Source of the DNA: Brachionus manjavacas
Taxonomy: Eukaryota; Rotifera; Eurotatoria; Ploima; Brachionidae
Length of the DNA stretch: 64,000 bases
Direction of reading: 5' to 3'
NCBI GenBank assembly: GCA_019054805.1
Contig: JAHQIY010000002.1
Span: 7,130,001 to 7,194,000, forward strand
The notes beneath the pieces were generated by a model. That model saw nothing but the letters and a program-made list of their open reading frames with translations. It had not been told where the DNA came from and ran no database searches. Each line of letters begins with the position of its first letter. The first letter of the stretch is position 1. Of the stretch, positions 5,311-64,000 are shown in pieces. Both the position numbers and the translations under genes were made by a program.

Positions 5311-6561
5311 TCGCTGAAAATTAATCAGAGAAAATTAATCTTTTAAATTTTTGCTGTTTTGGATATCTGGTAAAATTAAAATAAAATATATGTTTTATTT
5401 TTTTTAAATATTTGCTTAGACTACATAATTTAAGATCATCACCCTAATCAATTTTTCAGTTTAAGTGTCAAGAACTTTTTTTTAGCTAAAAAACATTAAT
5501 TTAAAGTGTCAAAAATCATTAATTTAAATTGAAAAAATTTAGCTTTTTTTGATGATGAAACAACATGAATTCAAATATGTTTCACTAAATTCAACAAAAA
5601 TTTTTGGAAAATATTAATAACAAAACAAAATATCAATATTTTGGAATTTATTTATTTCTTGTCTCTATGATCTATTCTAATCAGAATTTTTTTTGAATTT
5701 TGTAAATTTATTTTATTTAAATATTAAAATTCTGTCAACGTTCCAATTGTAAATATTTTATTTTTCATCCATAAGTTAACGTGCAATTTGTTAAAAACAA
5801 TCAATTTATTGGGAAACATTTATTTAAATTTTTTCTTAAATTGAACTGTAAAATGAAACACTGTTTGCTTCACCTTTTAAAAATTACAGAAAAATCTGTA
5901 ATTCAAAAGCAATATTTTTATTTAGAATTTAAATTTTGTTTTGGAATTTTTGTATGAAAATTCACAATTTCGACTTAAAGTAATGCAAATAATGAATATG
6001 TTACAATAAATTTTGACATAGGCTACCAAGAAGAGCTGCTTTGCATATTGGTGTTACAAATGTGTTTAAAAAATATTGGTATTTTTTAAACAATTATATT
6101 ATGGTAAAATTGTAAAGTTACTATTGCAAACAATAGTTTTATTTAAACATTGAATAAAATGCTAAAAATATTAAAAATTGCCGAAATTTTTATAATAATA
6201 TTTTTTTGTCATATAGCTATTAATAGTGATCGTTTTAAAAATAGAAAAAAAATTGTTTTAAAATATTCCCTATAAACCTCATTTTACTTTCGTCGATTAA
6301 CAAAAATTAAGATTTTTAATTTTTTAAAGAAGATGCTCGATTGCAGAGAGCATATATTTTTGTTTTGGTAAAAACTATTTTAAAATTTGGAAAAATTGTT
6401 CACATTTTTAAAATAAACATTTGTCATTTTTAAAATAAACATTCAAAATTAATTTAATTTTTTTAAAATAAATTCAGACAATATTTTTTGCATCAGATTT
6501 CATACAAAAAAATTTTTTGTTGTTGGCTTTAAATTGTTCAATTCATGCTCTTGATTACTTA
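5311..6561. other. AT-rich intergenic sequence
   Basis: No ORF, repeat family or RNA gene is recognised. The last few hundred bases should contain the promoter and 5' UTR of the HIRIP3-like gene, but no clear core promoter element stands out in this composition. Confidence 0.5.
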
Positions 6562-6570
6562 ATGCGCAAA

Positions 6571-10090: not shown

Positions 10091-13000
10091 CTAACAATTC
10101 AGATTTTGAATATTGCCGTTTGTGTCCCGATTTGAAGTAATATATCCGTAGAAATTAGTTCTGAAAAAAATCATTGTTGTCATGGGCATACAAATCGAAA
10201 AAATAACAAAAAAAAGTCTGAATTAAAAATAATTAAATAATTAAGTTGAAAAAAAATGAATAATGAACTTACCTGTCAAGCACCAATGCCGCTTGTTTCC
10301 ATTCTTCATAGTACAACGACCTTTCCATATTTATCTTTTCTTTTCTGAAGTAATCCTCGATTTTTCGTTCGTCTTCCATATCTTTATCCAAATTTATTCT
10401 CATACACTTATTCAAAAGTCTTAGAGTGCTCAAAAGTTGATGTGTATTTTGATATATCATCTCTGCTGTCCCATTGTTGGTAATTACCTCAAAATCCACA
10501 ACGCATTTAGAAAAATTTTTATTCACACAAAATGCACTCTTTTTCCTTTGTTTATCTTTAGTTCTGGCTAGATTCGAATTTGCTGAATAAAGCTCATCTC
10601 TTTTGCGCAAGTAAAACTTAAGACACAAAAATGGTCCAATATACTTGAATAAAATTAATCGAAAGCCATATGGTAGTTGGTTTTCATGAGGCGACAGATA
10701 TGATGGCGACTTGTAGTAGAGTCTTAGGACCATGACTGTGAAAACACACGAGAGGAATACTAGAGAAAAATTGGTTAGTGTAAAAAGAGTTAAAATAGGA
10801 ACTTTTGAAAAGCCTCTTGGAATGTAATCAGAAGTTATTTGCAGATAGAAAACTAGGCTAAGCAAAATAGTCACATCCAGAGTTAGTTTTTCGCCAGAGT
10901 CAGGTGCTAGCCAAAATGTGAACAAGGTTATTGACGCAATTATGGTAAAGGGAAAAATTATTTTTAAAAAATAATGTGTGGTCACTCGGCGCAGTTTAAG
11001 AGAAAACTTCAAGACTGTATATTCGATGTTGATTGAGTTTTTGGTCAGGATTATGCTTGTTTCTTCAACTGATGAGTTGATAATGAACCATTCAGTCTTT
11101 ATGTTTTCCATTACTTTGGCCTTTACGTTTCGCTTTATGATACGCAGCATGTTTTTGTCTCTAGCTGATGAACGAAGGTTTAGCGAGCAAGTTTGCTCGT
11201 CGAATGGAAAATTCATCACGTCTATTGCGCAAAAGCTCTTGCTTAAGGTCTGATAATGCCATCTGATTTTGCCCGCTGAATTTACAATTATCAAATAATT
11301 GTCTCTGTATCCACGAAACAATTTTTCTTCTGCGGAATCCATTATTATTATATCCGGAGTCCAAATCATTGAGGATTTGACATAAAGTTGACTGACATTT
11401 CCATAGTCATTCGGATTCCATTTCAGAAACGAATCATTCTTGAAAATTTTTTTAAAATAAATCCAAATAATCTAAGAAGTTGTTCGTATTGGAACTTAAA
11501 ATAGCTAATAAAATAAAATTTTTGCTCTAAATTTTTTGAACGAATTTATTTATCTTATTTTTTTTTCTCACAATTTACCTGAAAATAAACAATTTTTTTT
11601 GTTATCTGTACAAAATAATTAGTTATTTAGCCACAAATTGACATTAAATTTTTTCTATTACCTTAAAATTGAAATCCATCAATCCATCAAATAAACTAAT
11701 TCAAGTTCATAAAGAAAATTAATTTTTAAGTAAGAACGAACAAGTTTGATCACATTCGAGTCTTACCATTGAAAACTAGCCCTTGTGTCCTTAGCTCTTC
11801 TTTTGTTAGCAATGAACTATTATCCCTAATTTCTAGTCATTTTACTAAAGATGCGCTCTTAATATTGCAAAATAACCTAACAACTTTGAGATCACAGGGT
11901 CGATTTATTTCTTGCAACTTATGTTTTTTATCTTGCGACTCCAAGTTTATCATTTGAAGTTCTTGTAATAAACATTTTCATTTAAAATATGTTAAAAAAG
12001 CTTATGCATCTTAAATCAAAAAATGGATTTGCGTCAATTGTAATACTAATTAATTAATATGAACATGTTAATGTTTTTTTTTATTTTTTTTTTCTAAAAA
12101 CTTGTGGCTTAATAAATATAGAAAATTCAATACAAATGTGGTGTATCTATTTTTGTCCATTTACCCATAAAATGTGTGAAAATTACCAATTTTTTTTCCG
12201 TAGAAATAATTTTAAGAACTTTTTTTTTAATTTGTTTATAATCTTTTATAATTTTTCGAATATTATTAATTAAAAAAAAATGGTATTAATTTCATTCAAT
12301 TGTTTAACTATTTTAAAAATCAATGTAACGCAATCATGAGGTATACATAGGTTGTTGTCACTTGAATAAACGATGGTGTTTCCCCATATATATTTTAGAA
12401 AAATAAATACAAATAAATACTAAAATTAATTTTATATAGCTTAAAAAATTTAATTTAAAATAACGTTTTCTTATCTAAACTGGCAACAAAAACACTAATT
12501 CAGATAAAAAACCATCGATTTTTAGTATTTTTTGAAATTTTTGATTAAATTACTAAATTAAATTTAATAATATTGAATCAATAATATTGAAATATGGTTC
12601 AATTTTTTGTGTTTGAATTAAAAAATGTATTCAATGTTGAACTAACATTGAAAAAGTGCGATGTTTCAAATATTTTTTTCAGTTTTAAAAAAATAATAAT
12701 TTAAAGTTGATACTCAAAGTATTTTCATATTTGAAATTTAACTCTTTAGTGAAATGGAATGAGTTTAATTTTTATTTTGGGGTTTGAAAAAAATATTGGA
12801 AATTCTTTTTTAACTTTTAAACAATTCGTTTATTTATTTTTTATCGAGCAAATGCTCCTTCATAGAATAAAAACATATGAAAAAACTAAAAATAAAGTTA
12901 AATAATATATAATAGAATAAAAAATGAAAAAAAATAGATAAATTATTCATTTAGATTAAAGTTTATATTCAATCGTTGAAAAACTGGGTCTAGTTGGTTA

Positions 13001-14943
13001 GGTGAACTATAGTTCACTTATTAACCGAAAACCCAATTTTTTTGTTTAATATAGAATTATACGAGTAATTTTAATAATATGTGAACAAATTGATTATTTA
13101 ATAGAATGCCTAATTCTAAAAACTGAAATAAAAATTAGTTAATAATGTTTTTGTTTTTTTTGTAAATTTGAAGGAGCTTTAGAAATACCATTTGCTCTGA
13201 TCTGGTTGACTTGGTATTACCCTTTCAACAATCTCAAATACCCAAATGCGCTCTCTACTTATATCTTTGTCTTTCAGCACAAATAATAAAAATTGAAAAA
13301 AATTGAAATTAATTTTTCACCCTTCAAATTAATAATTAGGTTAACATGAGCCTTAAGTTGATAAATTGACTGAGACATTTGTAGCATATTTTTTCATTTA
13401 AGGTAAGAATATATTTTGTTATATTTTAAACAATCCCATTGATATTTTAAAAGACAATTTTTTGAGACATTTATTCTTCCATACTTGGACTATGTGCTAA
13501 CGCTATATATTTAATAATATGTTAGTAATATATTTTCCAAAATCAACAACCCAGAAACTATTTAATCTTTTCTATTCGTCCTTGTTTAAACTGTTTAAAT
13601 TTTACTTTTCAAATTTTGAACACAACGATTTGAACAACTTTCTTAAGAAATATGGATTATTTGGGTTCCAACATAGATTTTTATCTAGACTCCTAAACTT
13701 TGGTTTTAAAATATTTAAACTAGACAATGGTCCTATTTTACTAAAAGAAAGTTTTAAATAAAATAAAGTTAGAAACCTTAACTACAATTTAAGAAATAAA
13801 ATTAATTGAATTGTACCATAAACAAAAAAAAAGTTTGGGGAGCTAACTTTTTGATTTTTTCCCAAAATTAATTAATAATTTTGTTATCGATCGTTAGTGT
13901 TTTACCTTCAATAATTTCAAAACATCTATTTTTTAATAATATAAATTTTTCTTTTCTTAAATCAATTAAAATTTTTGAAAAATTTAAATTGGTTTACATA
14001 AATTTTTACAAATCAATTAATTATATAAATTAAATTTTTTTTAAACAATTTTTTTTATATAAAATATTTTGATATATTGTATTTTAATCAATTATTTATT
14101 TTAATTGAAATAAATTAAGAGTTACTCAGTCTATTCAATAGATAAGGAAACTAGCCTTTTGATCAACCTTGAAACTTAACTTAATTATGATTGTTTTCGT
14201 CTAATTCGATAATTTTCAATACCATCGATTAACAAAAATAATTCGGCAAATTTTTTAGTTTACCAGAATAGTTTAAGTTCGTGCAAGCATTTAATTTTAT
14301 GACGATTTAAGTTAAGAATATATTTTATTTTATTGTAAACAATCCGGTTTATATGTTTGAGACATTAGCTGTCCGTCTAATAGATATTCCAAGGCAATTT
14401 TTCATCAAATCACATACTTCATTTATTTTCTCATCTATAGTAGGTTTTCGACCACTTTTAAGTAATTCCTCAACAGTACCAAATTGTTCCTGTTTTTTCA
14501 TTCGGGACCTTCCAGTTTTCAATAAAACTTCTTTTTTAACACCCTGTAAATTCAGCATTAGGAAAAAAAGATAAAGCCTGGCTAATTTTTTAGAATTTTC
14601 TTTAAATGTGATCTCCGATTATTTAACTGAATGAATTATCAAAATATCTTACCCAAATGAAAACAAGTTGAATGTTAACTGACATGATCTAAAAAGTGAA
14701 AAGCATTATCAATATTAGAAAAATTTCCAAAAAACCCACTTGACTTTTTTCACTCAGTCCAACTATTTGAAGTACATAGAGTCCAGTGCAAACATTAGTT
14801 ATTTGAGAAGAATTTTCAACTGGTCTAGATTGAGGATCATAGTTTTTAAACAAGTCTCGTTTAAGATTTAAAGCTGCTTGCTGGCATTTAGCACAACTTA
14901 TTCCAATTACATACAATAAAATTAGTTCCAACAATGGTCTCAT
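10091..14943 (-). CDS. Nicotinic acetylcholine receptor-like subunit (non-alpha), four exons
   Basis: I assemble exons 14943-14740, 14688-14653, 11438-10273 and 10217-10091. All have GT..AG borders and consistent phases, giving 510 aa. Exon 1 has a signal peptide (MRPLLELILLYVIGIS) and LKRDLFKNYDPQSRPV plus GLYVLQIVGLSEKSQ. Exon 2 adds 12 residues, ending VFIW. Exon 3 has KWNPNDYGNV, WTPDII, the 13-residue Cys loop from CAIDVMNFPFDEQTC, M1 to M3 (M2 begins DSGEKLTLDVTILLSL) and an M3-M4 loop. Exon 4 gives M4 (LFFVIFSICMPMTTMIFF) and a short tail. The Glu of DSGEK fits a cation channel. No vicinal Cys pair is seen in loop C (WFIINSSVEE), so it is a non-alpha type that would need an alpha partner. 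The protein should sit in the plasma membrane. The 3.2 kb second intron is packed with repeats. Ligand choice cannot be read from sequence. Confidence 0.85.
11439..12595 (-). other. Receptor intron 2, 3'-proximal part
   Basis: Mostly AT-rich. On the minus strand 11990-11755 reads with codon-like texture (MINLESQDKKHKLQEINRP, then SLLTKEELRTQGLVFN) and ends in a donor-like GGTAAGA, but with one in-frame stop. It does not match the receptor family and would break its phase, so I treat it as an unidentified pseudo-exon or repeat fragment. Confidence 0.35.
12596..13325 (-). mobile_element. Truncated copy of the long-TIR element seen at 24137-25335
   Basis: In reverse orientation it matches about 24695-25335 of the full copy. 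Shared landmarks are TTTGTGTTTGAATT near 12607, AAAAAGTGCGATGTTTCAAA, GTCTAGTTGGTTAGGTGAAC near 12990, and the block near 13200-13270 around TTCAACAATCTCAAATACCC. The second arm is absent, so it is one-ended. It lies in intron 2 of the receptor gene. Confidence 0.75.
13460..13761 (+). mobile_element. LINE C-terminal fragment (FQHR type)
   Basis: It reads FILPYLDYVLTLYI, then after a stop VIYFPKSTTQKLFNLFYSS, LNNFLKKYGLFGFQHRFLSR and PILLKESFK. This is the post-RT tail of a LINE group with the FQHR/FQKR motif, distinct from the family at 4862. It is 5'-truncated and antisense to the host receptor gene. Similar short blocks (TAAGAATATATTTT..AACAATCC..GAGACAT) occur near 13405 and 14312. Confidence 0.6.
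14349..14558 (-). pseudogene. Mariner/IS630-type transposase helix-turn-helix fragment
   Basis: It reads VEELLKSGRKPTIDEKINEV followed by CLGISIRRTANVSNI. This matches the end of the N-terminal paired helix-turn-helix of mariner/Tc1-like proteins (usually SGRP....DE....V...I......SIRR.A...). No catalytic domain follows. It lies on the same strand as the receptor gene, inside its second intron. Confidence 0.5.
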
Positions 14944-23822: not shown

Positions 23823-24136
23823 ATTTCAAAAAAAAATCAAAGCAACTAAAAAATTAGCAAAAATCTAAAGGAAAATATTTTTTCTTATCTGGTGGCATGA
23901 TTAAAATTCTGTCTTTTTTAGACAGCCACAAAATTTGCACAGTGAAGATTAGCCTAATTTTACATATCTTTCGAAAAAAATGATAAAAACAAAAAGTAAA
24001 ATATTGAGGAATTGTGAAATTTAGAAAAAATTGGACAAAAATTTTTCTTTGAAAGTATTTAAAAAAAAAAATCTGAAAAAAATATTGAAAATTGAAATTT
24101 GATTTTAATTTTTTCAAAAAAATCTTATTTTGATTT

Positions 24137-25335
24137 GGTTTAATTATTTGTGTTTGAATTACAAAATGAATCCAATGTTGAACCAACATTGAAAAAGTGC
24201 GATGCTTCAAATATTTTTTTGAGTTTCAAATAAAAAAATAATTTTAAGTTAATATTGCAAGCATGAAAAACTTGGTATTTTTTATGAATTTTGACTTTAG
24301 GTTTGTGATATGATGATCCTTAAGATAATATTTGTAGTTTAAAAAACTATCTACGCTCTGTTTTCCATTTTTTATCAATTGAGTATTTGTTAAAAGGCAC
24401 CAAACGAAAGTAAATTATCACCAAAGTCAAAATTTTATTTAGAAGAAAACAAAGTTTTTCGTGTCTAGTCGGTTAGGTGAACCAAAGTTCACTTATTATC
24501 CGATAGATTCTTGTTCTCAGGTATGATGACATATTAGTTCATCTAATCTAAAAATTGTTGACATTTAGAAAAGCTAATGTAATAATAAAAAATAAGATAG
24601 AAAAATAATTACATAAAAAATCTAAAGTTTGGCGGAGTAGGTAAATTTTGCGAAATAGATGAATCTTGGTTCCCCCAAAGTCAAACACTTGAAGGGTGAA
24701 AAATTTATTTTAATTTTCTTTAATTTTTATTGTTTTATGCTGAAAGGCAAAGATTCAAGTAAAGAGCGCATTTGGGTATTTGAGATTGTTGAAAGGGTAA
24801 TACCCAGTCAAACAGATCACAGCAAATGCTAGGCTATTTCTAAAGCTCCTTCAAATTAAAAATCTAATTATTATTAACTAATTTTTATATCAGTTTCGAG
24901 AATTAGGCATTCTATTTAATAGTTTTATTCAATTTGTTCACATAATCTAAAAAATGGTCGTCTAATTCCATTTTTAACAAAAAAATTGGGTAAATCAATA
25001 GTTCACAAAACCTGAGAACAAGAATTTTTCGGATAATTAGTGAACTTAGGTTCACCTAACCGACTAGATCCAGTTTTTCAACGATTGAATATAAACTTTA
25101 ATCTAATGAATTATTTAACTATTTTTTTTTATTTTTTTATTTTTATTCATTTTTTTTCTTTATATTATTTTACTTTATTTTTAGTTTTTTCATATGTTTT
25201 TATTCTGAAGGAGAATTTGCTCCGTAAAAAATAAATAACTGAAGTGTTTTAAATCAAATATTTGAAACATCGCACTTTTTTAATGTTGTTTCAACATTGA
25301 ATACATTTTGTAATTCAAACACAAAAAATTAAACC
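24137..25335. mobile_element. Long-TIR element, full copy of about 1.2 kb
   Basis: Ends are inverted: GGTTTAATTATTTGTGTTTG on the left against CAAACACAAAAAATTAAACC on the right. Inverted matches continue through AAAGTGCGATG..TCAAATA near 24195 and its complement near 25250. A second inverted block lies at about 24460-24520 and 25010-25072 (TCTAGTCGGTTAGGTGAAC; GAACAAGAAT). The middle, 24690-24900, is unique and noncoding. A truncated relative lies at 12596-13325, and terminal scraps lie at 28480-28610, 32940-33000 and 33390-33425. It is nonautonomous; the superfamily is unknown because no clear target duplication was found. Confidence 0.82.
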
Positions 25336-25351
25336 ATTTTTTATTTAATTT

Positions 25352-25931
25352 TTAATTTAAATTACAACCACATGACTTTAAAATTCGATCTATAATTTTG
25401 TCTGTTTCAAATCCTTTTGTTAATTTTTTAGTTTCGGATTGTTTTTTTTTTAATGAACTCACTATCGTGGGAGAGATCTAAAATTATTTTCCTAAAAAAT
25501 TAAATAAAAAAAGATTAAAATTAAATTATAAACGAAGAAATATTTTTATCAATCAAATACACAACTGAATTTAATTGTTTTTAAAAAATTAAAATTTGTA
25601 GTACGTCTGTACCCATTTTTAAATGAGAATTTGGATCTTAAGAAAAATATTTATTAACTCGAATAAATGAAAACTATTGTCTTTAATAAAATATGTTTTA
25701 TTTTTTGTTTAAAAAAAAATTGATGATAATATTTGAATCTTTTAAGTTTGAGTCATAATTAATAAAAAATTTTGTTAGTATTTTTTGATCAAAAATTATT
25801 TTTAAAGAGTTGTAAATCTGTCCTTTTTTATTTCCAATTGAACGGCTAATTCCAAGTACCCTATTTAAAACATATTGATGGCGGCTAGTTCGAGGTCTGT
25901 CACTAAACTGTTTTTGTTTTCCAGGTGCCAT
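25352..25931 (-). CDS. Small unidentified gene, probably two exons
   Basis: Exon 1 starts MAPGKQKQFSDRPRTSRHQY and stays open for 77 codons, though only the first 37 or so look protein-like. A strong acceptor at 25478-25479 (TTTTAG) opens a last exon, 25477-25352, reading SEFIKKKQSETKKLTKGFE then IIDRILKSCGCNLN and stop. The donor of exon 1 could not be fixed, so the joined protein is uncertain. The product would be small, basic and probably nuclear or ribonucleoprotein-like. I do not recognise the family. The stop lies only 17 bp from the end of the neighbouring transposon, whose edge may supply the AATAAA (minus strand, about 25345-25340). Confidence 0.4.
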
Positions 25932-27738: not shown

Positions 27739-28479
27739 TTTGACAGGGGCGAGTTTCTTGAATATTTTGCTTTTACAGAAAAATTAGAAATTTTTTATTT
27801 CAAAATTTGTGAGCATAATTTCAAATCATTTATTCTTTTGCATTTATTTTATGAATTATGAAATTATATGTATTTGTTGAAAAAATTTTATTAATTTTGA
27901 AGCTGAATTCTTAAATAGATATTTCTAAAAGCAATGACTTTAATGGACAAAAAAATCTATTAAAAAAATTTGACACCAAAATTATGAATTTGGTCCTTAA
28001 AGATTTTTTGACAATTTTGTTTTTTTTGAAAAAGCTGATGAAAAATTTTATTCATTACGAATTTTGAACCATTTATTCTTATTAATAAACAATTATTATT
28101 AATTTTAAAAAATTTAGTTATTTCAGACAAAAACTGTGCTTTCCAATTTTTTAAAGATAATTAAAATAATTAGTGTATACGTTGATAAAAAGACTAAAAA
28201 ATTTTTTTAAATTCTGAAATTATGTTATAGATTGGGTTTTTTATGGCTCTTTTTAAGTTATTTGACTTAAGATTTCAAAATATTGAAAATTGGTTTGTTT
28301 TATAATAAAATCAACAATGATTTGATTATCAATCATTTAATTCGATAATTAATTTTATGTTACTGGATTAAAGTTTAAAATTTAAAAAAAAAATTTCAAT
28401 ACTTATTTTTATATCCTTAAAATAAAAATTAAACTCGTTCTGTTTCACCAATAAGTTTAATTTCAAATATGAAAATGTT
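27739..28479. other. AT-rich intergenic region upstream of GTF2E2
   Basis: Nothing recognisable. It should hold the promoter and perhaps a first exon of the TFIIE-beta gene. Confidence 0.4.
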
Positions 28480-28610
28480 TGCAATATTCATTTAAAATTA
28501 TTTTTTTGAAACTGAAAAAATATTTGAAACATGCAATGTTATTTTTACTTTTGCAATGCTATTTTAACATTTTGTAATTGAAACTCAAAATATTAAATCA
28601 AATTGATTCA
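28480..28610. repeat. Terminal scrap of the long-TIR element family
   Basis: It contains AAATATTTGAAACATGCAAT, then TTTTGTAATTGAAACTCAAA and ATTAAATC, a diverged version of the right end of the 24137-25335 element. No second end was found. The following 28611-29221 is AT-rich. It includes TTTATTTGTTTTATCTGTAC near 28896, a short repeat also found (inverted) near 53710. Confidence 0.5.
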
Positions 28611-52450: not shown

Positions 52451-54113
52451 TAAGTGAATATTTTTTGTTTACATATGTATATAAATTTACCTATATATAA
52501 ACACAAGCAATTAAATTAACATTAACTTTAATATTTTAGAAATGGTATCAAAAGAGAAAATTATTTTAAGTAATAAAATATACTGCGAATTGTGTAATTC
52601 GTTTACGAGAAATTCCAACTTCGAGTTGTTTAGGGTCAGGAAATGGTGATAACCGTAAAAGGGTTGTTATGAATGCTTGTAAAATTTAATTTATTTAATT
52701 TTTTTAGTTAAGGCATTTAAAAAGAATTCTCGATGAATCAAAATAAGTACTAAAGATTAAAATAAAATATTATAGTAGATATTTTAAAATTTACCACACA
52801 CACAAGGTAATTATAGGAACGGGTCAAGTCCAAATTTGGATTTTTTCTAATTAAATAAAATTGTGGGATTCGCTAACGGATTTTCTGCGATTAAACATAT
52901 GTAATTACCGTAACAACAGTTTAAGTGTGTGTGGCTTTAGACTTAAACAAGATAAAAAGTAAGAACAAAAAAAATGAGGGGTGATCATGCGAGTTTTCTA
53001 ATTAAAGTTTTAGTTTTATATATATTTTAATATATGTCGAACAAAAAGATTTTACAAACGCCTTGAGATCTCTTTTAACAAGAGAATTTTCCAAATGATC
53101 ATAATGAAACAATGACATTCTATGAAAATAAAGATCATTTAAAATTTCTTGAAATTAAAAGCATGAAATATAATATTATTTAAGGAAAATTAAAGAAATT
53201 TGTGCAAAAAATTCAGCCTTTGATCTGGCCTGGGAAAGAGCAAGAGAAAACCTAAAAAACGCAAGGTCAAAGTCAATCAAGCCAAATAAATTGAAAATAA
53301 TTAAAATACGTTTTAAGTTTATAATATTATTTTTGTCTCGATATTTTTTCTTTCAAAAGTAACTTTTTTTTAACTCTATTTTATCTTTTTTTACATGAAT
53401 TTACGTAAAAATTGGTAAAAAAAGTTAAAAAAAAGTAACTTTTGTTAAAATATAATCAATACATGTCTAGCTAATTTTAGCCTGAGTTGGTTCAATTTAT
53501 CCTTTTTATTTTTATTCTTTTTAGGCTGAACTATTTCTTCAGAGGACAATAAAAATTTTAAAAAAATTTTAAAGATCAAATTCTTACTAAATAATTAAAT
53601 GAATTTGAGACAAAATAAAAGCTAATTCTCAAAAATCTAAAAAAAATATCAAATAATTGTCTAATCATAAATTGAAGTAAAGATTTAAAAAAAAATGTGA
53701 GGTAGCTCGGTACAGATAAACAAATAAATGAATCAAAACTGATCTTATGTTTTTGCATTTTTTGTCCTTTTAAATTATAGCTTAAAAATTTTTTTGATGA
53801 CATCTTTAGTGAGTTAAGATGTCATCTTGATGAATCAATTCAATTCGTAATAATTAAAATTCTAAACTTTCGCTGATTTTGAATTTATCTTTCTAATTTT
53901 CTACCAAAAATAATAGATAATATTGGCTTTGTTTAATAACAAACTAAAAAAATTGAAATATCCAAAGTTTGAATTTTTAAATAATAAAAAGATAGCTACT
54001 TATCTAAAATTCAATAATCAAAGTCCTCACGTTTAACATGCCGCATGATTTTTACATAATTTTTATTCAAAAAAATATATAAATTCAATTAAAAAAAAAA
54101 AGAAACTCAAAAA
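52451..54113. other. AT-rich intergenic region
   Basis: 52541-52650 reads MVSKEKIILSNKIYCELCNS, then FTRNSNFELFRVRKW and stop, a possible short coding scrap with one C..C pair. Near 53690-53735 the inverted copy of the TTTATTTGTTTATCTGTACC repeat appears. Otherwise nothing. The last 100 bp upstream of 54114 are the likely promoter of the acyltransferase gene. Confidence 0.4.
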
Positions 54114-57100
54114 ATGAAATTGCCAATTTTATTTTTGGCTAGTGTAGTCAGTCTTACTTTTGCTTCGAGCCAAATAAACCTAATTCAAAATCGAAAAAGT
54201 CTCATTCCACTTAATTTCAATGAAGCAATCAAATCTTTTCATAACAAATTAGAATTATTAGACAATATAAACAAATTCGAATACACTAATCTGAACAAAT
54301 TTGATATAATCAATAGCATAAGCGCTCTCAATTCTCCAAAAGCGCCTTTTCCTTTGCCAAATGTTTCAACAGACTGTCTATCTCAATTGACATCATTCGC
54401 TTTAGCTTTATCAAGTGGAGAATTATGGGCAGTCCAAGGTACAAATAAAAATTACTAAAATATAATTTTTAAATAAATTCATTATTTTTTAAAGTACTGG
54501 ACGCTTTCGGTAAGCCTCCCTCTGGCATTATTCAAGGATCTCTTTTCTGGGCTGGAGAATATAAAGAATGCATTAATATCACAGAAAACACTTTTGTTGG
54601 AAAATACTGTTCATTATCAAAGCCACAGATCCCCTCAATGAATCCAATAGCAGTACGTTTTAATTAAAATAATATCCTCTACCTTTTTCAATATTCTTTA
54701 GTCATTTAAATATGGACTATGTGCACCTAGCTTCTGTAACCATGATGATATTGCAGCAATTATAAATCTTGGTATTTATCAAAATAATTCAATCAAATTA
54801 AAAATTATTTTTTTTTTTAGGAATTTCTATTATACCTAAAAATATTACGGATTTACTGCCTGTAAATCTAAGCTTGATAGATTCATCGTATGTTACATGT
54901 GTAGAATCAGAACCACTAGATTCGGATGCAATATTGGCAATGTAAAATTAACTATTTTTAATTTTTTAATAACCATTCTATTTAAATAAAAGTGTGATAA
55001 TATCAATTTTGGCTTTATTGGTCTTACTTGGAACTGCTTATGATATCTTCAGAGACTATTCATTTAAAAATCATTTGAAATACATTAATAGTTCAGTTAT
55101 TATTCAAACCGATAATGGAAATGTTATTAATAATGACGAAAAAGAAAAAATAATTCAAACTTATGAACAAGAGAGTAAAATTTAAAATTTTGAATTTAAT
55201 TTAATTTTTTATTTATTCATTTAGATGAGTCAAAGCTTGGAAAAATTTTGCTTGGCTTTTCTTTAAATACAAATGCTAAAAAACTTTTTCATGTCACAAA
55301 AAGTGCAGATCAACTTCAATGTCTTCATGCTATTCGATTTTTATCAATATCCTGGTAAACCTAGAGATTAAATTCTTTAAATAGAAATTAATTTGTATAA
55401 AGGGTTGTCTTGGGTCACACTTATGCTTTTAAACTAGGAAATATTGGTATTTCATAAATAAAAATAAAAATTTATTATCAAAATAAATTTTTATTGAATT
55501 TTGTAGACAACATTTTGGTAATTACTTCATGGCTCAAGCGATTTTCTTTCTTGATCGTATCAAATGCTTTTTTCTCAGTAGACAGCTTTTTTTTGCTCAG
55601 GTTAAATTAAAAAATAAAAAAGAGAAAAAACTAATTTAAATAAATTTTAGTGGTCTTTTGACTTCATATATGTTTCTAAAAGAAACATCCAAAAGAAAAC
55701 TATCAGTCGGTCTAATGGCAAAATATTATTTTCACCGAATATGGAGGTTTCTTAGAAAAGCAGTTTTTGGCAGAAATAATTTTTTATTACTTTAGATTGA
55801 CTCCGCCCTACATCTTGGTTTTGATGTTCAGCGCAACCTTAACAAAATATCTCGGCACCGGTCCAATGTATCCAAAAGATGGCTTCGAAATCAACAAATG
55901 TCATGATACCTGGTGGACTAACTTGTTGTATGTGAATAATCTAGTGAAAACTAAACAACCAGTAAAACAAACTAAATTTGCTGATCGAAAGCTTTAATTT
56001 TGTGTCTTAAGTGCTTGAGTGTAAGTTGGTATTTGGCAAATGACATGCAATTCTATTTTATTGCTCCTTTGATGTTGATACCTTTGGCTCTTGGGTAAAA
56101 AAAATATAATTTTAAAAATGAAAACTTTCTTATAATTGATTTTACAAATAGAAAAAAATTTTTGGGTTTCGGAATTTGCATTCTATTATTAGTTGGAAAC
56201 ATTATTGCAGTTGCTTTGATTACTCATCACTATCCAGGAACAGAATTCGGAATTTTAGGGTAATTTTAACTAAAAAACATTTTAAATGTCGATTAAGAAA
56301 ATATTAAAATCCGATTGATGAAAAAAAATTCAAAAATGAATCTTATAAATTAAAATAATAATTATTGAATCGTATTTTAAGTAACAAAAAAAATTTTAAG
56401 AATCTTTAAATAATTTATTTTTTTATGAAGGTAAAAGTTTTATGCATTTTTTTTATGTAATGTTTTTCAAATATTACGTAAAAAAATATTTTTAAAAAGT
56501 TTTTGATTAAATTGATATAAAAAATAAACAAATTCAGATTAATCTCTAAAATTTTGTAAGGTTTTTATTACTAAATATTCTAATTATTTAATTTTTGTCT
56601 TCTTTTTTCTTTATTTTTTACTTGGAGGTGTTCAATGAAATAAATAAATACAATAAACATTGAATGTAAACCTTGAATTCTTTGTTCTGATTTTAGAGAA
56701 ACATATTTGATAATATTTGAAAGCAGAGTAGAAAATTTAAATATTACATTTAATGTTTAATTTAAAAAAAAACTTTTAGTAAAATTAAAGACTCAGAAAG
56801 GTCTAGATTTAGAAAATTGTAGTGTTAACCTTGCGATTTTCGTTTTCAATCAATGATAATTATCACCTTGAATTACTCATCTTATTAGAAAAAAAAATCA
56901 TGTCTGTATTATTTAATTGTGAATTTTAGAGCTAAATCATAAACGAAATAATTCACTACTAAGTTTTTTTTTCAAAAAAAAACAAAATTTATAATTAGAA
57001 TATTTTTTAGACTTTTAGGTCTTTTAGACAAAACTTTTAGGTCAAAAGTAAAATAGAACTAGCTTTAAAAGAAAATTTTTACCAAATTTAAAAAATACTT

Positions 57101-57852
57101 TTTTTTAAATATTATACTTTTAGTATAAAATTATTTTTTTTTAGATCAAAGATTCTAGTTTTTAACCCAATTTTAAAATTTAAGAAACAATCCGAACTAT
57201 TTTGAAAAACTTTATATTACCCCATGGTGCAGGATCGGACCATACATAGTTGGAATTATTCTCGGCTATATTATTTTACATTTCAAAAAAAAAGATAACT
57301 TCAAAATAAAATTTGAGTTTAATTTGTTGCTTTGGTTGATTAGTCTCGTAACTCTTGGATTAATGTTGTTCGGTATCTATCCAAATTTAAATGGAAATCC
57401 TTTGAGCCTAACAGAAAATATTTTATACCAAGCATCTTCAAGGTATTGAAAATAAAAATAATATTTTTTTAATTCTACTATTAATTAGAATAATTTGGGC
57501 AATGGGTTTGAGCTACGTAATATTTGCTTGTGTTACATCACATGGTGGAATAGTTAATTCAATGCTAAGCTGGTCAGTTTGGGTGCCATTATCACGACTC
57601 TCATATTGTCTTTATCTTTTTCATACAGTAGTTATTTTATACTATAACGCTGTACAGGATCATCCAATTCATATGCAAGACTCTAATATTGTAAGCAATC
57701 TTTTTTTCATTTTTAAAATATCTAAAAAAATTTTTAAGATTTTTAATTATATTGCCAACATGGTCGTCTCGTTAGCTTGCGCGTTTCTAGTTTCCATGAC
57801 TTTTGAAGTACCACTTTTAGGACTAGAGAAAGTTTTGCTCAAAAAGCATTAA
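54114..57852 (+). CDS. NRF-6-like membrane acyltransferase (acyltransferase-3 family)
   Basis: I assemble 15 exons: 54114-54438, 54495-54652, 54702-54771, 54821-54941, 54993-55174, 55225-55354, 55403-55446, 55507-55600, 55651-55746, 55796-55961, 56012-56094, 56152-56259, 57185-57442, 57489-57690 and 57739-57852. Every border is GT..AG and all phases agree; the protein is 716 aa. There is a signal peptide (MKLPILFLASVVSLTFASS), then the NRF lumenal domain (SGELWAVQVLDAFGKPPSGI, YGLCAPSFCNHDDI), TM1 (IVIISILALLVLLGTAYDIF), and the acyltransferase-3 membrane domain beginning LQCLHAIRFLSISWVVLGHT (conserved His). FFLLSGLLTSY, HRIWRLTPPYILV, WWTNLLYVNN, SWYLANDMQFYFIAPL, PWCRIGPYIVG and LSRLSYCLYLFHTV follow. 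Nematode NRF-6/NDG-4 relatives affect lipid or drug transport; the acyl substrate here is unknown. Introns are about 47-60 bp except the 925-bp intron 12, which holds repeat sequence. Confidence 0.9.
56260..57184 (+). other. Enlarged intron 12 of the acyltransferase gene
   Basis: All other introns of this gene are near 50 bp. This one contains a LINE-tail-like ACTTGGAGGTGTTCAATGAA then ATAAATAAATA (56622-56652) and AT-rich sequence. The enlargement is best explained by an insertion that has since decayed. Confidence 0.5.
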
Positions 57853-57855
57853 TTC

Positions 57856-57861
57856 AATAAA
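57856..57861 (+). terminator. Polyadenylation signal of the acyltransferase gene
   Basis: AATAAA starts four bases after the stop codon, in keeping with the very short 3' UTRs seen for other genes here. Confidence 0.55.
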
Positions 57862-58001
57862 AATTAATTGTTAAAAAAATTTTTCATTCATTCTTTTACA
57901 ATTTTACCCAAAAAAATCTTTTTTTTACATCAACAAATGTTTTTATTAAAAGTTCTAATTATTTAAAAATATTTATTTACAATGCTACAAAGGTGAAAAA
58001 A

Positions 58002-58466
58002 CTAGCATATTTTTGTCTTGATGCCAATTGTGTATGCGGGCGCTCTTTTTTTGATATAATTCACTGCTTTGGTTACATTGTAGATTGGTCCAGGACTGCG
58101 GCCACAACCATTAATATCAGTAGAGCTTTCGCGTCTAGTGCCAAATGAGTATTGGGGAGCTGATCTGCGCTGCGAATTTGGCAAATTGGGACCAAAAACA
58201 CGCTCTGGATTGTAGAATGGAGGGTTTGTGCGTCCACAATTAGATTGATTTTTATTCTTGTGATCTTGCTGGCTTTTATTGATGAATGAATTTGTTTGAG
58301 ATTGTTTTTTGACAATTCTAGGTCCTTTCTTTTCTTCGTAAAATGCTGGAACTGATGGAACTTCTTGCTCTGCGGCTATTCTAGGTGTTTCCGCTACTGG
58401 GTTAAGCTCTTGGACGTTGAATTGATAGGCTTCGTTTAGATTATCGTTATTCTCAACTTCTTCCAT
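58002..58466 (-). CDS. Small STPGR (SHIPPO)-like protein
   Basis: A single exon reading, from the preferred Met at 58466, MEEVENNDNLNEAYQF (154 aa). The open frame reaches an earlier Met (58562), but the 32 added residues are hydrophobic and look like translated 5' UTR. The C-terminal half has repeated Pro-Gly-rich motifs: NPPFYNPERVFGPNL, SAPQYSFGTR, GRSPGPIYNV and KRAPAYTIGIKTK. The pattern PGP.YN...APAYS.G.R is that of sperm-tail PG-rich repeats, found in ciliary and flagellar axoneme proteins (ODF3/CIMAP-like). A role in cilia is therefore likely but inferred. It converges with the acyltransferase gene, about 150 bp between stops. Confidence 0.6.
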   Translation of the reverse strand: MEEVENNDNLNEAYQFNVQELNPVAETPRIAAEQEVPSVPAFYEEKKGPRIVKKQSQTNSFINKSQQDHKNKNQSNCGRTNPPFYNPERVFGPNLPNSQRRSAPQYSFGTRRESSTDINGCGRSPGPIYNVTKAVNYIKKRAPAYTIGIKTKIC

Positions 58467-58562
58467 TTTTGAGTTAGTTTTGTACAAGATTAGGAAACAA
58501 ATTAGAAAATAAAAACATAGAAATTTTAAGTGTAAAGAACTAGACTTGATAAAATATATCAT

Positions 58563-59469
58563 TAAGTTAGAAAAAAAAATTAGAATAAAAGCCCTGGTGA
58601 GGAGTTTAATTTTTTTAATTGCTAAGAAAATTTTTATTTTTTTTCCAAATTTTTTTGATAATTTACATTTAAACGTAGAGTATTAGTAAAATTTATTTGG
58701 ACTTATTTTCTATAAGGAATGTGTGCGAATATGAGTGATGGTTGTAGGTTTTGTTTCCAATTTTTTTTATCGTTTGATTTGATATTAAAAAAATGATTTT
58801 GCGTTTGCTTATCATTTTTTAGGCGATAAATACTTAGACAAATTTTGGGGGTGAAATTTTTAGTTCTGCTTGCTTGAGAATTCTGGTTTTTCACTTTCAA
58901 AACAATATTGTTAAGTATTTTGTTTAAATTATTTAATGATTCAAAAATTTTTAATTAAATTAATGAATTAGAGCTATTTTAATTTGAAATAAATGATGCA
59001 ATTTACAATATTTTTTTTTAAATCTGAAATTTAAATCTTTTCTTCCTTTTGGTAAAGATGAAATATTTTAATTTTGCATTTCAAATATATAAATAAACAA
59101 AATTTATTATGTATTAATTGAAAATATACAGTTTTTTTTTGGAAAATTTAATAAGGGTTAATTTATTCTATCATGAATATACTGATTAAACATTGAACTA
59201 TCAAACATGCAGCAATGAAAAACAGAGTTGCATTTAAGTTTGTGTTCAGACTAGAAACATCATACATGAATTAAAAGAACGTGGTTACTCAATAAAAAGG
59301 CTCGATTCAATAAAATAATGGAGTATTAATGATAAAAAATTAGGAATTCTTAATTCATCAATTAATTTAATTAACTGAATCATTAATATTATTCTCCCTC
59401 TAATGGTTTTTCCAGGCTAAAAATTGGGTGATCCAAGCAAGGATAAATAAAAGATTATTTTATCTCACT
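58563..59469. other. AT-rich intergenic region
   Basis: No gene is recognised. The small minus-strand open frame at 58703-58900 has no family features. Confidence 0.4.
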
Positions 59470-59820
59470 TTTCAGTGAGTCAAAGCGGAATGTATTTCCT
59501 ATCTGGTTTCCGACTCGTTTATTATTAAAATAAATATTTACAGAGAGCATTTCATTCTAAATCGAGTAGTGGATAACTGGAATAGACTACCACCTGACGT
59601 ATTGGCTGCAACATCAAAAGACAATTTTAAAAAGAAACTGGATGATTTCTTAGCGTCATAACAACTACAGTTAATCAAAACTTATTATTTTTAGTTTATT
59701 TATCTAGTGTTTGTAACTCGTTTTAGCTACCATAGTGAGACTCTTAGTCTCGCTCTACAGGCTAATGTCTGTTGTAGCTCATATTATTATTATTATTATT
59801 ATTATTAAATAAATAAATAG
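59470..59820 (+). mobile_element. LINE 3' end with tail
   Basis: It reads YREHFILNRVVDNWNRLPPD then VLAATSKDNFKKKLDDFLA and stop, the last residues of a LINE ORF2. About 120 bp of 3' UTR (TTTTAGCTACCATAGTGAGA, with a hairpin around GAGACTCTTAGTCTCGCTC) and TTATTATTATT-type repeats at 59785-59808 follow. The 5' part is deleted or unrecognisable. The 3' UTR matches the inverted tail at 21300-21410. Confidence 0.8.
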
Positions 59821-60674
59821 AGTTTTCACAATTGTCTTTCAATAACTACAGTAGTAGCATAAGATTACAATTTTTTCAAAATATTATTTTGAATATTCAA
59901 TTTCCAAGATTGATAAACAGGCTGGAACCCTTGACATAGTAGAGTAATTAATACTTCATTTACTTCATAATACTTAATTTAATTAATAAAAATGAAAAAC
60001 TAACGATTGATAAATTTATGACATTTTTCTTTATTATTTTACAAAGTCAATATAAATCAAATTGATATTTTTCTAAATTGAAAGTTTAAATGTTGCATAT
60101 TTCACCATCGATTTCATGATCACAAAGCTATTTATCCATCTTGAATAAAAAAATCCAAAAATATTTTCACCATTAACAGACTTTGCCATTGTTTCAATCA
60201 ATTTCCCACTTTTCCTTTAGTTTTAGTTCAGATTCCTTGAGTCATTTTTCGACAGTCTTTTTTTTTCAGGCGAGTTATGATAGAAATTTGGAAATTAATG
60301 TTATAAAAAGTCAAAAAAATGAGGGTGAAGGGCAAAAATTTAAAATAAGATAAATTAAAAAATATATTCGGGTTCAAGAACATAAGGGGAACTAAATAGC
60401 CATTAAGAACGCAAATAATCTTAAACAAGCACTGCAATATCTAACTTTAAAAAAGTATTTATAAATCAGAACAACTGATTAAAGTGAACTTGAAAAAAAA
60501 CTATAAATCAAAAGAGAGAAATGAAAGGAATGACAAATTAACTGAAGGAAATAAGAGACATTACTATCTTAGCAAAGATTGTAGATAGTTGATTATACCT
60601 TACGGACGGATTAGAATTAATAATATTTTCATAAAAAAGTAGTTAAAATTTTTTTGAAAATTAATAAAAAGAGC
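59821..60674. other. AT-rich intergenic region
   Basis: Nothing recognised. Confidence 0.4.
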
Positions 60675-61501
60675 ATTACCCGGGATTTAAATAACGCAAA
60701 ATTTCACGCAAAAAAACGCATACGCCTGTTTTTATGCATAAACGCGTAATAATCTTTAACAAAACAGCGTTTTTAACGTGTTTTTAAGATTTTATAAAAA
60801 TAATGGCAAAAGTTCAAAATATAAATAAATAAATCAAAAAAGTTGATTTCATACGAAATTTAAAATCTCTTATTATTTTTGAAAGCATAAAAAATATTTT
60901 TAAAAATTATATTATTAGATTTAAAAATTATTTGTGTATTAGCGCATCGTCCTCTTCTTTGTTTTTGAGAGAAAAGTGGAGTTATGTGTATTTACGCACT
61001 AAAATGAGAGCTCAATATTTTTCAGCAAAAAATAATGAAAGATTGATAATTTTGATTGATATTTTAAATTAAAGTTAGAATTAGCCAATTTATAATCACC
61101 GTTTTTTTATTTTTGTTTGACTTGACTTGAAAAAATATCTCTTGCTGTATTTTGTTTTTATAATCTATTTCTTTGTTTAATTTTTATTATTTTGTATTTA
61201 TTATTTTATTTTTTATAATAAATTCGCCAACCTAGTTACATTCATACCTTTTTTATTAATTTTTTATTAATAAAAAATAATATTTTTTTATAATCTCGAT
61301 ATAATGGGTATTTATTAGTTTATTTTTAGTAAAAAATGGGACGTTTTTATGATTTTTGATGCAGTGTGCTTAAATGCGTCTAAATGAAAGATCCTATGAC
61401 ACCGAAAGTTATTTAATAAACGCGATTTTATGCTTAGATTTACTCAATTCTACAATTGTTTTTACGCGTAATATTTTGCGTAATTTTAATCTCGGGTATC
61501 A
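60675..61501. mobile_element. MITE with ACGC-rich arms, about 830 bp
   Basis: The left end reads ATTACCCGGGATTTAAATAA then CGCAAAATTTCACGC. The right end, reverse-complemented, reads GATACCCGAGATTAAAATTA then CGCAAAATATTACGC. Both arms carry several further ACGCGT/AACGCG motifs, for example near 60718-60775 and 61420-61470. The interior is AT-rich and noncoding. The arms differ substantially, so the element is old. The class is unknown. Confidence 0.75.
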
Positions 61502-62361
61502 CCGCACATATAGACAACCAATTGTGATAATATTTTATTTTTTATACTTTTTAGAATCTAAAGAACTCTTTTTTTATATTTTAATCACTTTATAGAAGTT
61601 TAAAAGCATCTTGATCAAAATTTACTTGAAATTTTCAAGAACAGATTATTTTAGTATCAGATCAAAACCAACTCCAAAATATTTTTGTTTTGTTTTTTTA
61701 ATTTTATTGAATCATTTGATTCTGTTTTATTTTTTTTACTCAGTGGTTGGGCTTCATTTAAATTAGCACTTAAATTGAGTTCTGAATTTGTAGCTTTAAA
61801 ATCACCATCATCATTGTGTGTATTTTCTACCAGATTTAATCTTATTTCTATCCTTTAATAAAGACAAAACCAATTTTTTTGTCCAATTTAGAGATATAAA
61901 TCCCCAAACTCAATTCAATACCAATAATGTGAGCACAATCAGCTTGAAAAACTTGGTTTAGGATTCTCCTTGACGATAAAAGCATTATTTTTAAAATCTT
62001 TGATGTTAAATGTACCAGTTTAAGAACAAAAATGATTTGACCCTTTGGAGCCAAACCACTTGGCTCGCATTAATTTTGAATTTACCTCATTTTTTGCATT
62101 GAAGTTGTTTGTTGTTTTTTTCCTGACTCCTCATCAAATAAAGAAGGTGATTTAGAAGATTGTGTTTCTAATTTTTCTTATTGCTTCTAATTAACTTAGA
62201 AATCTTGATTATGATCTTGGCAAAGTATTTATATTCCTTTATAAAGAATCTTAATTAGGAATCTGAATAAAATTCTTTTAAAAAATCTTGATGTTATCTT
62301 CGCAAATTTTTAACGCTTAGAATTTATTCAGGTAGGAATCTTGAACAAGTTAGTTAAGTTT
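61502..62361. other. Intergenic sequence with weak coding texture
   Basis: On the minus strand near 62070-61900, pieces such as MRAKWFGSKGSNHF and TFNIKDFKNNAFIVKENPKP look protein-like, but with stops. No family is recognised. It may be a decayed gene or element. Confidence 0.3.
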
Positions 62362-62583
62362 TAGTTTTTTTCTCTTTTTCATTTTTTAATTTAACCTGAG
62401 CAAAAAAAAGCTGTCTACTGAGAAAAAAGCATTTGATACGATCAAGAAAGAAAATCGCTTGAGCCATGAAGTAATTACCAAAATGTTGTCTACAAAATTC
62501 AATAAAAATTTATTTTGATAATAAATTTTTATTTTTATTTATGAAATACCAATATTTCCTAGTTTAAAAGCATAAGTGTGACC
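62362..62583 (-). pseudogene. Inverted partial copy of acyltransferase exons 7-8
   Basis: The minus strand from 62583 to 62362 repeats the plus strand from 55412 to about 55632. It includes the last 35 bases of exon 7, the whole intron between exons 7 and 8, exon 8 and the start of intron 8. By eye it is identical across exon 7, intron 7 and exon 8, with one substitution and a one-base length change in the intron 8 part. Retention of the introns shows it is a genomic DNA copy, not a retrocopy. It cannot make a protein on its own. Confidence 0.95.
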
Positions 62584-62681
62584 CTTAAAATATCAATAAT
62601 AGCATAAAATAAAGACTAGATTTTAAAAATTTTAATTTATAAATAATTAATAAACAGAATTGAATTTTGCATTAATAATTA

Positions 62682-63104
62682 CAATCGAACCTCGATATAA
62701 CGAGATCCCATATAACGAAGGATTATTATTAAATGGGTATTTATATTAATTATTTGTGTGTAAAAATGAATATTTTTTCGATATTTATTTTTTGTCAAAA
62801 TTACTGAAAAAGAAATAAAAAATGGGTACATAAAAATTATTGTCGATATTATAAAAATATTATAAAATTGATTCTTGGGTATTAAAGAAATGATTATTGA
62901 ATACTATAAAAATTATTAACAAAACAAAACAAAGATCTATTTCTGATTTTTCAAATAATTTTTATTTTGCTAACCATTTTTTTGTTTTTGTTTGAAAAAA
63001 TTTTAGAAACCAAATTTTTTTTTGTTCATCATTTTTAATGGGATTTCGATATAATGAGCAGGACAATTTCCGCCCGATTTGCTCGTTATATCGAGGTTCG
63101 ACTG
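62682..63104. mobile_element. Pogo/Tigger-like MITE
   Basis: Ends are CAATCGAACCTCGATATAAC on the left and TTATATCGAGGTTCGACTG on the right, inverted, with TA on both sides. The arm continues CGAG.....CGGGCGGAAATTG-like near 63065-63085. CAGTCGA ends and a GGGCGGAAA block are also present in the Tigger remnant at 51481, so this may be a nonautonomous member of a related family. Noncoding. Confidence 0.88.
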
Positions 63105-63664
63105 TACTTAATTTTTTAAAAGAAAGAGTAATATTTTTTAAATGCTTACAAATGAACCAAAAAAAAGCGCTTTAAAAGAAAATCAAAAAGATTATTGTTA
63201 TATTTAAGTAAGAACTTTCTTCCTATTTTTTTCACATTATGTTAACCCATTGAGTAAAGTAATACATATTTAAAAAAAAAGAGAAAAATATCGCCGAAAT
63301 CTTGAATATATATATTTAAATATTTTCATAAATAATTATTTTTATTTATGGTAACCAAGTTAGCCCGGCACCTTTTTTTATTGCATATTTCGCACCAATT
63401 TTTCGAAAACTTCAAAAATAGTCACCCAATTTCCCCGAATCTTTTTATGTCATCCTTTTACTGTTGTGTGAGGTCTTAAAGGATTTAAGCGGTTAACCCG
63501 ATTACAACTAAAATTGTTTACAATTACCCCGAAATTTAACCCTAAATGAAGAACTTAACTCATTTAACCCATCAAGGAATATTAGTAAAAAAGTAAATAA
63601 AAAAAACGAAACAAAACAATAGTGAGTTTAAAAGAAGATTTAATAAACGAGGAAAAACCAAGGT
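63105..63664. other. Intergenic region with repeated pyrimidine-rich CC motifs
   Basis: Near 63360-63570 the sequence is oddly rich in AACCC, CCCCGAA and TTTAACCC motifs (for example GTTAACCCGATT, TTACCCCGAAATTTAACCC). No ORF or known RNA. It may be a diverged satellite or element arm. Confidence 0.4.
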
Positions 63665-63835
63665 TTAATCATCACGATCATCACAAAAAAATTCTTTGTT
63701 TGATTTTTTTTAATTCTTTTGGTAAACAACTAAAATAAACCCAATTTGAACACGCTTCACAAGGAATCCATTTTGACGTATTCTCTTTTTCTTTAGCCAC
63801 TTTTGTTTCACATGAAGTGTACAATATTTTAGAAA
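63665..63835 (-). pseudogene. PHD-finger-like C-terminal fragment
   Basis: The minus strand reads WIPCEACSNWVYFSCLPKEL, then after a one-frame change FFCDDRDD and stop. The W..C..C..W.....C....C arrangement is the second half of a PHD zinc finger, often found at the C-terminus of transposon-encoded and chromatin proteins. The upstream part runs toward 63990 and the window edge and is not recognisable. Confidence 0.45.
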
Positions 63836-64000
63836 GAGAAAGAATGTTTATTTAATTATTTAAAAAAATAGATTAAATCTGTTTAACCCTCTAAAGCCTT
63901 AAGATTAACCCCATTTCATATATCATAAATAGCATATCCTCAAATTCTGAAAATATTCTCATATAAACTTTAAAATGTGCTGAATCGAATAGTCAAAAAA

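Follow-up and report, generated by a model that had tools for sequence, protein, structure and literature searches.

About 223 bp of an acyltransferase gene of the rotifer Brachionus manjavacas occur a second time, in inverted orientation, on the same contig. We examined this pair in a window of 64,000 nucleotides (contig JAHQIY010000002.1, positions 7,130,001 to 7,194,000; coordinates given without a prefix are those of the window). The best explanation, to which we assign a probability of roughly 0.78, is one recent local duplicative insertion of a repair or template-switch type, which would have left a functionless, drifting fragment.

The acyltransferase gene and its inverted partial copy

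The donor is an NRF-6-like (nose resistant to fluoxetine) acyltransferase gene on the plus strand (54114..57852), recognized from an exon model and Pfam matches. The model comprises ten exon pieces separated by GT/AG introns, and the translation is open in frame throughout; exons 1 to 9 and most of exon 10 were modelled, and the remainder to the stop codon was assigned by eye. The translated exon pieces match the Pfam families NRF (5.2e-21) and Acyl_transf_3 (1.1e-08). An AATAAA begins at 57856, just after the stop codon, whose last base is 57852. Exons 7 and 8, which are the subject of the duplication, lie at 55403-55446 and 55507-55600.

Direct comparison of the two 219-nt arms, the donor at 55412-55630 on the plus strand and the copy at 62366-62584 on the minus strand, shows 218 of 219 bases to be identical, with a spacer of 6,735 nt between the inverted arms. 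BLAST carries the alignment slightly further, from 55412-55634 to 62584-62361, at 99.1% identity over 224 columns with 1 mismatch and one 1-base gap. The donor arm is accordingly listed here as 55412..55634 (plus strand; pairwise comparison and exon model) and the copy as 62361..62584 (minus strand; pairwise comparison and assembly search). Chance is excluded for this match, because its E value is 1.7e-111 when the window is compared with itself and 5.0e-108 when the genome is searched. Beyond the block, the flanks of donor and copy are unrelated on both sides in pairwise comparison, so that the edges are sharp. The initial annotation had reported a nearly identical match of about 220 bp that included introns, with the copy at 62362-62583, and both statements hold, the coordinates to within a few bases.

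The copied block omits the first 9 nt of exon 7, continues through intron 7 and exon 8, and takes in 34 of the 50 nt of intron 8. An earlier description of the copy as exons 7 and 8 with introns is thus borne out by the exon model as to the parts of the gene involved, but it overstates their extent, since the copy lacks the start of exon 7 along with the preceding acceptor, and it stops 16 nt short of the end of intron 8. Both donor acceptor splice sites, the one before exon 7 and the one at the end of intron 8, are therefore missing from the copy.

With a single substitution and a single gap over about 223 bp, the substitution divergence between the arms is about 0.5%. Judged by this figure the duplication is recent, and its age in years would follow only with a mutation rate.

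The number of copies was determined by searching the animal's own assembly (114.17 Mb in 61 contigs), in which repeat counts are to be taken as lower bounds. The arm used as a query has two full-length places, both in the window, and two 33-bp matches inside the same arms. With 54100-58600 as the query, the inverted copy is the only other place of high identity. The next matches, at 8.23-8.29 Mb of the same contig, are 68 to 87% identical over short stretches and are probably paralogues of the acyltransferase gene; because of that low and patchy identity they are not the source of the copy. Further short matches elsewhere in the assembly are 71 to 90% identical. The many identical copies elsewhere that would have marked the block as part of a repeat did not appear, and a transposable element or repeat-family copy was rejected on the same two full-length places, with the counts again being lower bounds. 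The earlier claim of a recent duplication at the level of DNA agrees with all of these features: the introns are kept, the identity is 99%, the edges are sharp, and there are two full-length copies.

Surroundings of the copy and local duplications in the genome

The copy sits in intergenic DNA that is rich in repeats. On its left is a fragment of a dispersed repeat (62175..62348, no strand assigned), with 10 other places at 71 to 83% identity as a lower bound, the furthest-reaching matches of which end at 62348, 12 nt before the copy. On its right, at a distance of 95 nt, is a short MITE-like element with terminal inverted repeats (62680..63106, no strand assigned), recognized from its inverted arms and having at least 40 other matches within 62677-63119 (40 of 230 candidates were scored). 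The spacer holds a young interspersed repeat at 59540..59814, with other places at 84 to 99% identity, which by eye is probably the 3' end of a LINE, and a second interspersed repeat at 60663..61499, with other places at 81 to 96% identity, labelled by eye as a non-autonomous DNA element; neither was assigned a strand. Between the donor gene and the copy, and convergent with the donor gene, lies a minus-strand open reading frame (ORF) of 186 aa at 58002..58562. Its translation contains a sperm-tail PG-rich (SHIPPO) repeat, which Pfam SHIPPO-rpt matches at 4e-06 with 28 bits, the cut-off being 20. In the 10 kb past the window (L005), the minus strand carries four of the five ORFs of at least 90 aa, and the remaining ORF overlaps a longer one of these; three of the four resemble by eye one GTP-binding-protein gene, probably GTPBP1/2-like.

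Repeated sequence is also seen elsewhere in the window. A long ORF at 6517-9312 has internal repeats at 7311-8278 that are 63 to 87% identical, and related interspersed repeats, in both orientations and 75 to 93% identical, occur at 12568-13327, 24133-25364, and 28373-28604. At 838-1090, a stretch of 129 bp is directly duplicated in tandem, the two units being 99.2% identical.

The background of local duplications was gauged by self-comparison of a 194-kb sample made up of the window, the next 30 kb, and 50 kb each from contigs C1 and C3, with pairs accepted at an identity of at least 95% and a length of at least 60 bp. This gave eight pairs, of which six were set aside and two remain. Those set aside include the tandem pair at 838-1090 and three pairs with an arm having 5, 9, and 13 hits in the sample. 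Another is a 979-bp pair downstream of the window (L048:1213-2191 and L049:1080-2058), taken for LTRs by its length and spacing and without a genome count; its members are direct, 98.9% identical, and 8.9 kb apart, and they look like the ends of a young LTR element. The last, a 132-bp identical direct pair (L051:9818-9949 and L052:5626-5757), was set aside for its many genome copies: there are eight full-length places at 100% and two at 99%, several of them paired 5.4 to 5.9 kb apart. These copies identify it as a putative short-LTR-like element, which would have been active recently.

The two pairs that remain are the acyltransferase pair itself and, as its comparator, two direct copies of 256 bp on C1 (L051:170-425 and L051:8345-8600), 97.7% identical and 7.9 kb apart, for which the genome-wide search found two full-length and six weak partial places (lower-bound counts). 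Adjoining its first arm is a second local duplication that starts at L050:9639 and spans 533 columns at 94.4%, below the 95% cut; this piece belongs to an old dispersed repeat but has one other near-identical place, 5.2 kb away, at 97% over the 362 bases queried. The locality on C1 is therefore the product either of two recent duplications or of one complex one. Outside the window, then, comparable two-copy local pairs at 95% or above number 1 in 130 kb, in direct orientation, and this is the count free of selection, because the window was chosen for its pair. Small as it is, the 194-kb sample gives a hint that short local duplications of recent date are nothing unusual in this genome.

Origin of the copy

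In the sequence of events that we favor, about 223 bp of the acyltransferase gene would have been copied as DNA during the repair of a break, from a nearby template and by a strand-annealing or template-switch type of process. The copied piece would then have been inserted in inverted orientation 6.7 kb away in the repeat-rich intergenic DNA, and the inserted fragment, presumably functionless, would have been drifting from that time. We infer that copying ran from the gene to the intergenic DNA, with the copy as the derived member, because the gene is open over ten modelled exon pieces and the copy is partial.

The insertion site itself offers few further details. Flank searches of the assembly found no empty insertion site, and none can be read from the left dispersed repeat, because that repeat does not resume to the right of the copy. 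The 40-nt flanks of the copy share no direct repeat of at least 6 nt, and hence no target-site duplication of that length is seen. Read in the sense of the donor, the copy has an A-rich 3' edge, a stretch that the donor also has with one A fewer. At the left junction 11 nt match exon 10 of the gene; they were considered as templated filler left by serial template switching, and this reading was dropped when controls matched equally well: of 3000 segments, 442 equalled the match within 1 kb of the donor, 619 within the gene, and 1010 within the 10-kb range.

Several other origins could yield a similar pair. A retrocopy of the spliced mRNA is excluded, as intron 7 is retained whole together with the 34 nt of intron 8, and there is no target-site duplication of at least 6 nt. 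Retroposition of the unspliced precursor RNA by a LINE enzyme would accommodate the introns, and it could draw on the LINE-like repeat in the spacer (a label given by eye), on the A-rich edge of the copy, and on the 17 of 29 examined non-proximal cases with poly(A/T) tails in a survey of human duplications (PMC2671141). We nevertheless consider it quite improbable, given the lack of a target-site duplication of at least 6 nt, an A-rich stretch that was already in the donor except for one A, and a landing site only 6.7 kb from the source, which would be unexpected. The pair might also be an older inverted duplication whose arms have been kept nearly identical by gene conversion; ongoing conversion had been offered as an alternative in the initial annotation. 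Close inverted arms are able to convert, and 99% identity that extends through introns is compatible with conversion and by itself does not exclude it; however, the identity breaks off abruptly at either edge, where no decayed continuation follows, and a single recent event needs fewer steps. Ongoing conversion is thus unneeded and without positive evidence, and we give this origin a very low probability. An assembly artefact, for which the use of a single assembly leaves room, appears equally improbable, since both flanks of the copy match full-length at this place only, one base and one gap distinguish the copy from the donor, and it lies within a contig of 9.9 Mb.

The insertion by repair that we prefer has relatives among known duplications. 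Pace et al. (2009) described 824 human duplications with closely linked copies and lengths of up to 619 bp (PMC2671141), and the rotifer copy resembles them in its short size of 223 bp, its position on the same chromosome, and its close linkage. The human set sometimes includes exons and splice sites, as the copy here has exons; among the cases reported is an inverted copy of exon 7 of ACSBG2, which lies inside its own gene, whereas the copy here is in intergenic DNA (PMC2671141). At 223 bp including introns, the copy is within the insert size given there (a minimum of 50 bp of genomic DNA and, for proximal cases, a maximum of 619 bp). In the class that is confidently assigned to repair, donor and acceptor are less than 5 kb apart, a limit that the authors term ad hoc, and the 6,735 nt between the arms on this contig exceed it. 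Further hallmarks of such duplications, namely microhomology, deletion, or filler where the insert joins its surroundings, are judged there by comparison with an empty site. With regard to an added poly(A) or poly(T), the A-rich edge of the copy is shared by the donor, except for one A. In the cases examined there, poly(A/T) tails as signs of retroposition were present in 17 of 29 interchromosomal duplications versus 0 of 39 proximal ones. Because of this difference and the distance of 6.7 kb, we describe the insertion as working like those duplications and do not file it in the proximal class. Microhomology-mediated break-induced replication or template switching (PMC2621351) would yield a local, inverted, templated copy such as this one; the control comparison at the left junction showed no multi-fragment junction.

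In comparing the copy with retrotransposed genes, its introns, its local position, and the lack of a target-site duplication of at least 6 nt set it apart. Retrocopies are likewise partial gene copies with an A-rich edge.

Possible activity of the copy and its significance

If both arms were included in one transcript, about 219 nearly perfect pairs could form a stem, and it had been proposed that such a hairpin, or an antisense RNA, silences the acyltransferase gene or alters its splicing. The order of genes gives this proposal no support. The donor transcript would have to continue for 4.5 kb past the stop codon and AATAAA to reach the copy, crossing the convergent ORF at 58002-58562 on the way, and the copy is without the donor acceptor sites. 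The ORFs past the copy are mostly on the minus strand and, if read through, would produce the sense strand of the copy. Because the ORFs between and beyond are on the minus strand (including four of the five in L005, with the fifth overlapping), no neighbor seen would transcribe the copy antisense. A search of 54000-64000 against Rfam gave no family at the gathering score, and an exact-match search with the spliced leader of bdelloid rotifers had no hit. As judged from gene order, an effect of the copy on silencing or splicing is therefore extremely unlikely. The same very small probability applies to the idea that plus-strand transcription of the copy yields a young antisense regulator, newly born by duplicative insertion, which acts on the acyltransferase gene in trans.

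The copy looks like an ordinary scar of DNA repair, with no sign of activity. On present evidence nothing follows from it beyond its value as an example, which is that of one clean, young case of the local scattering of short gene fragments in a compact, AT-rich animal genome; gene-fragment copies of this kind can mislead both gene prediction and the mapping of small RNAs.
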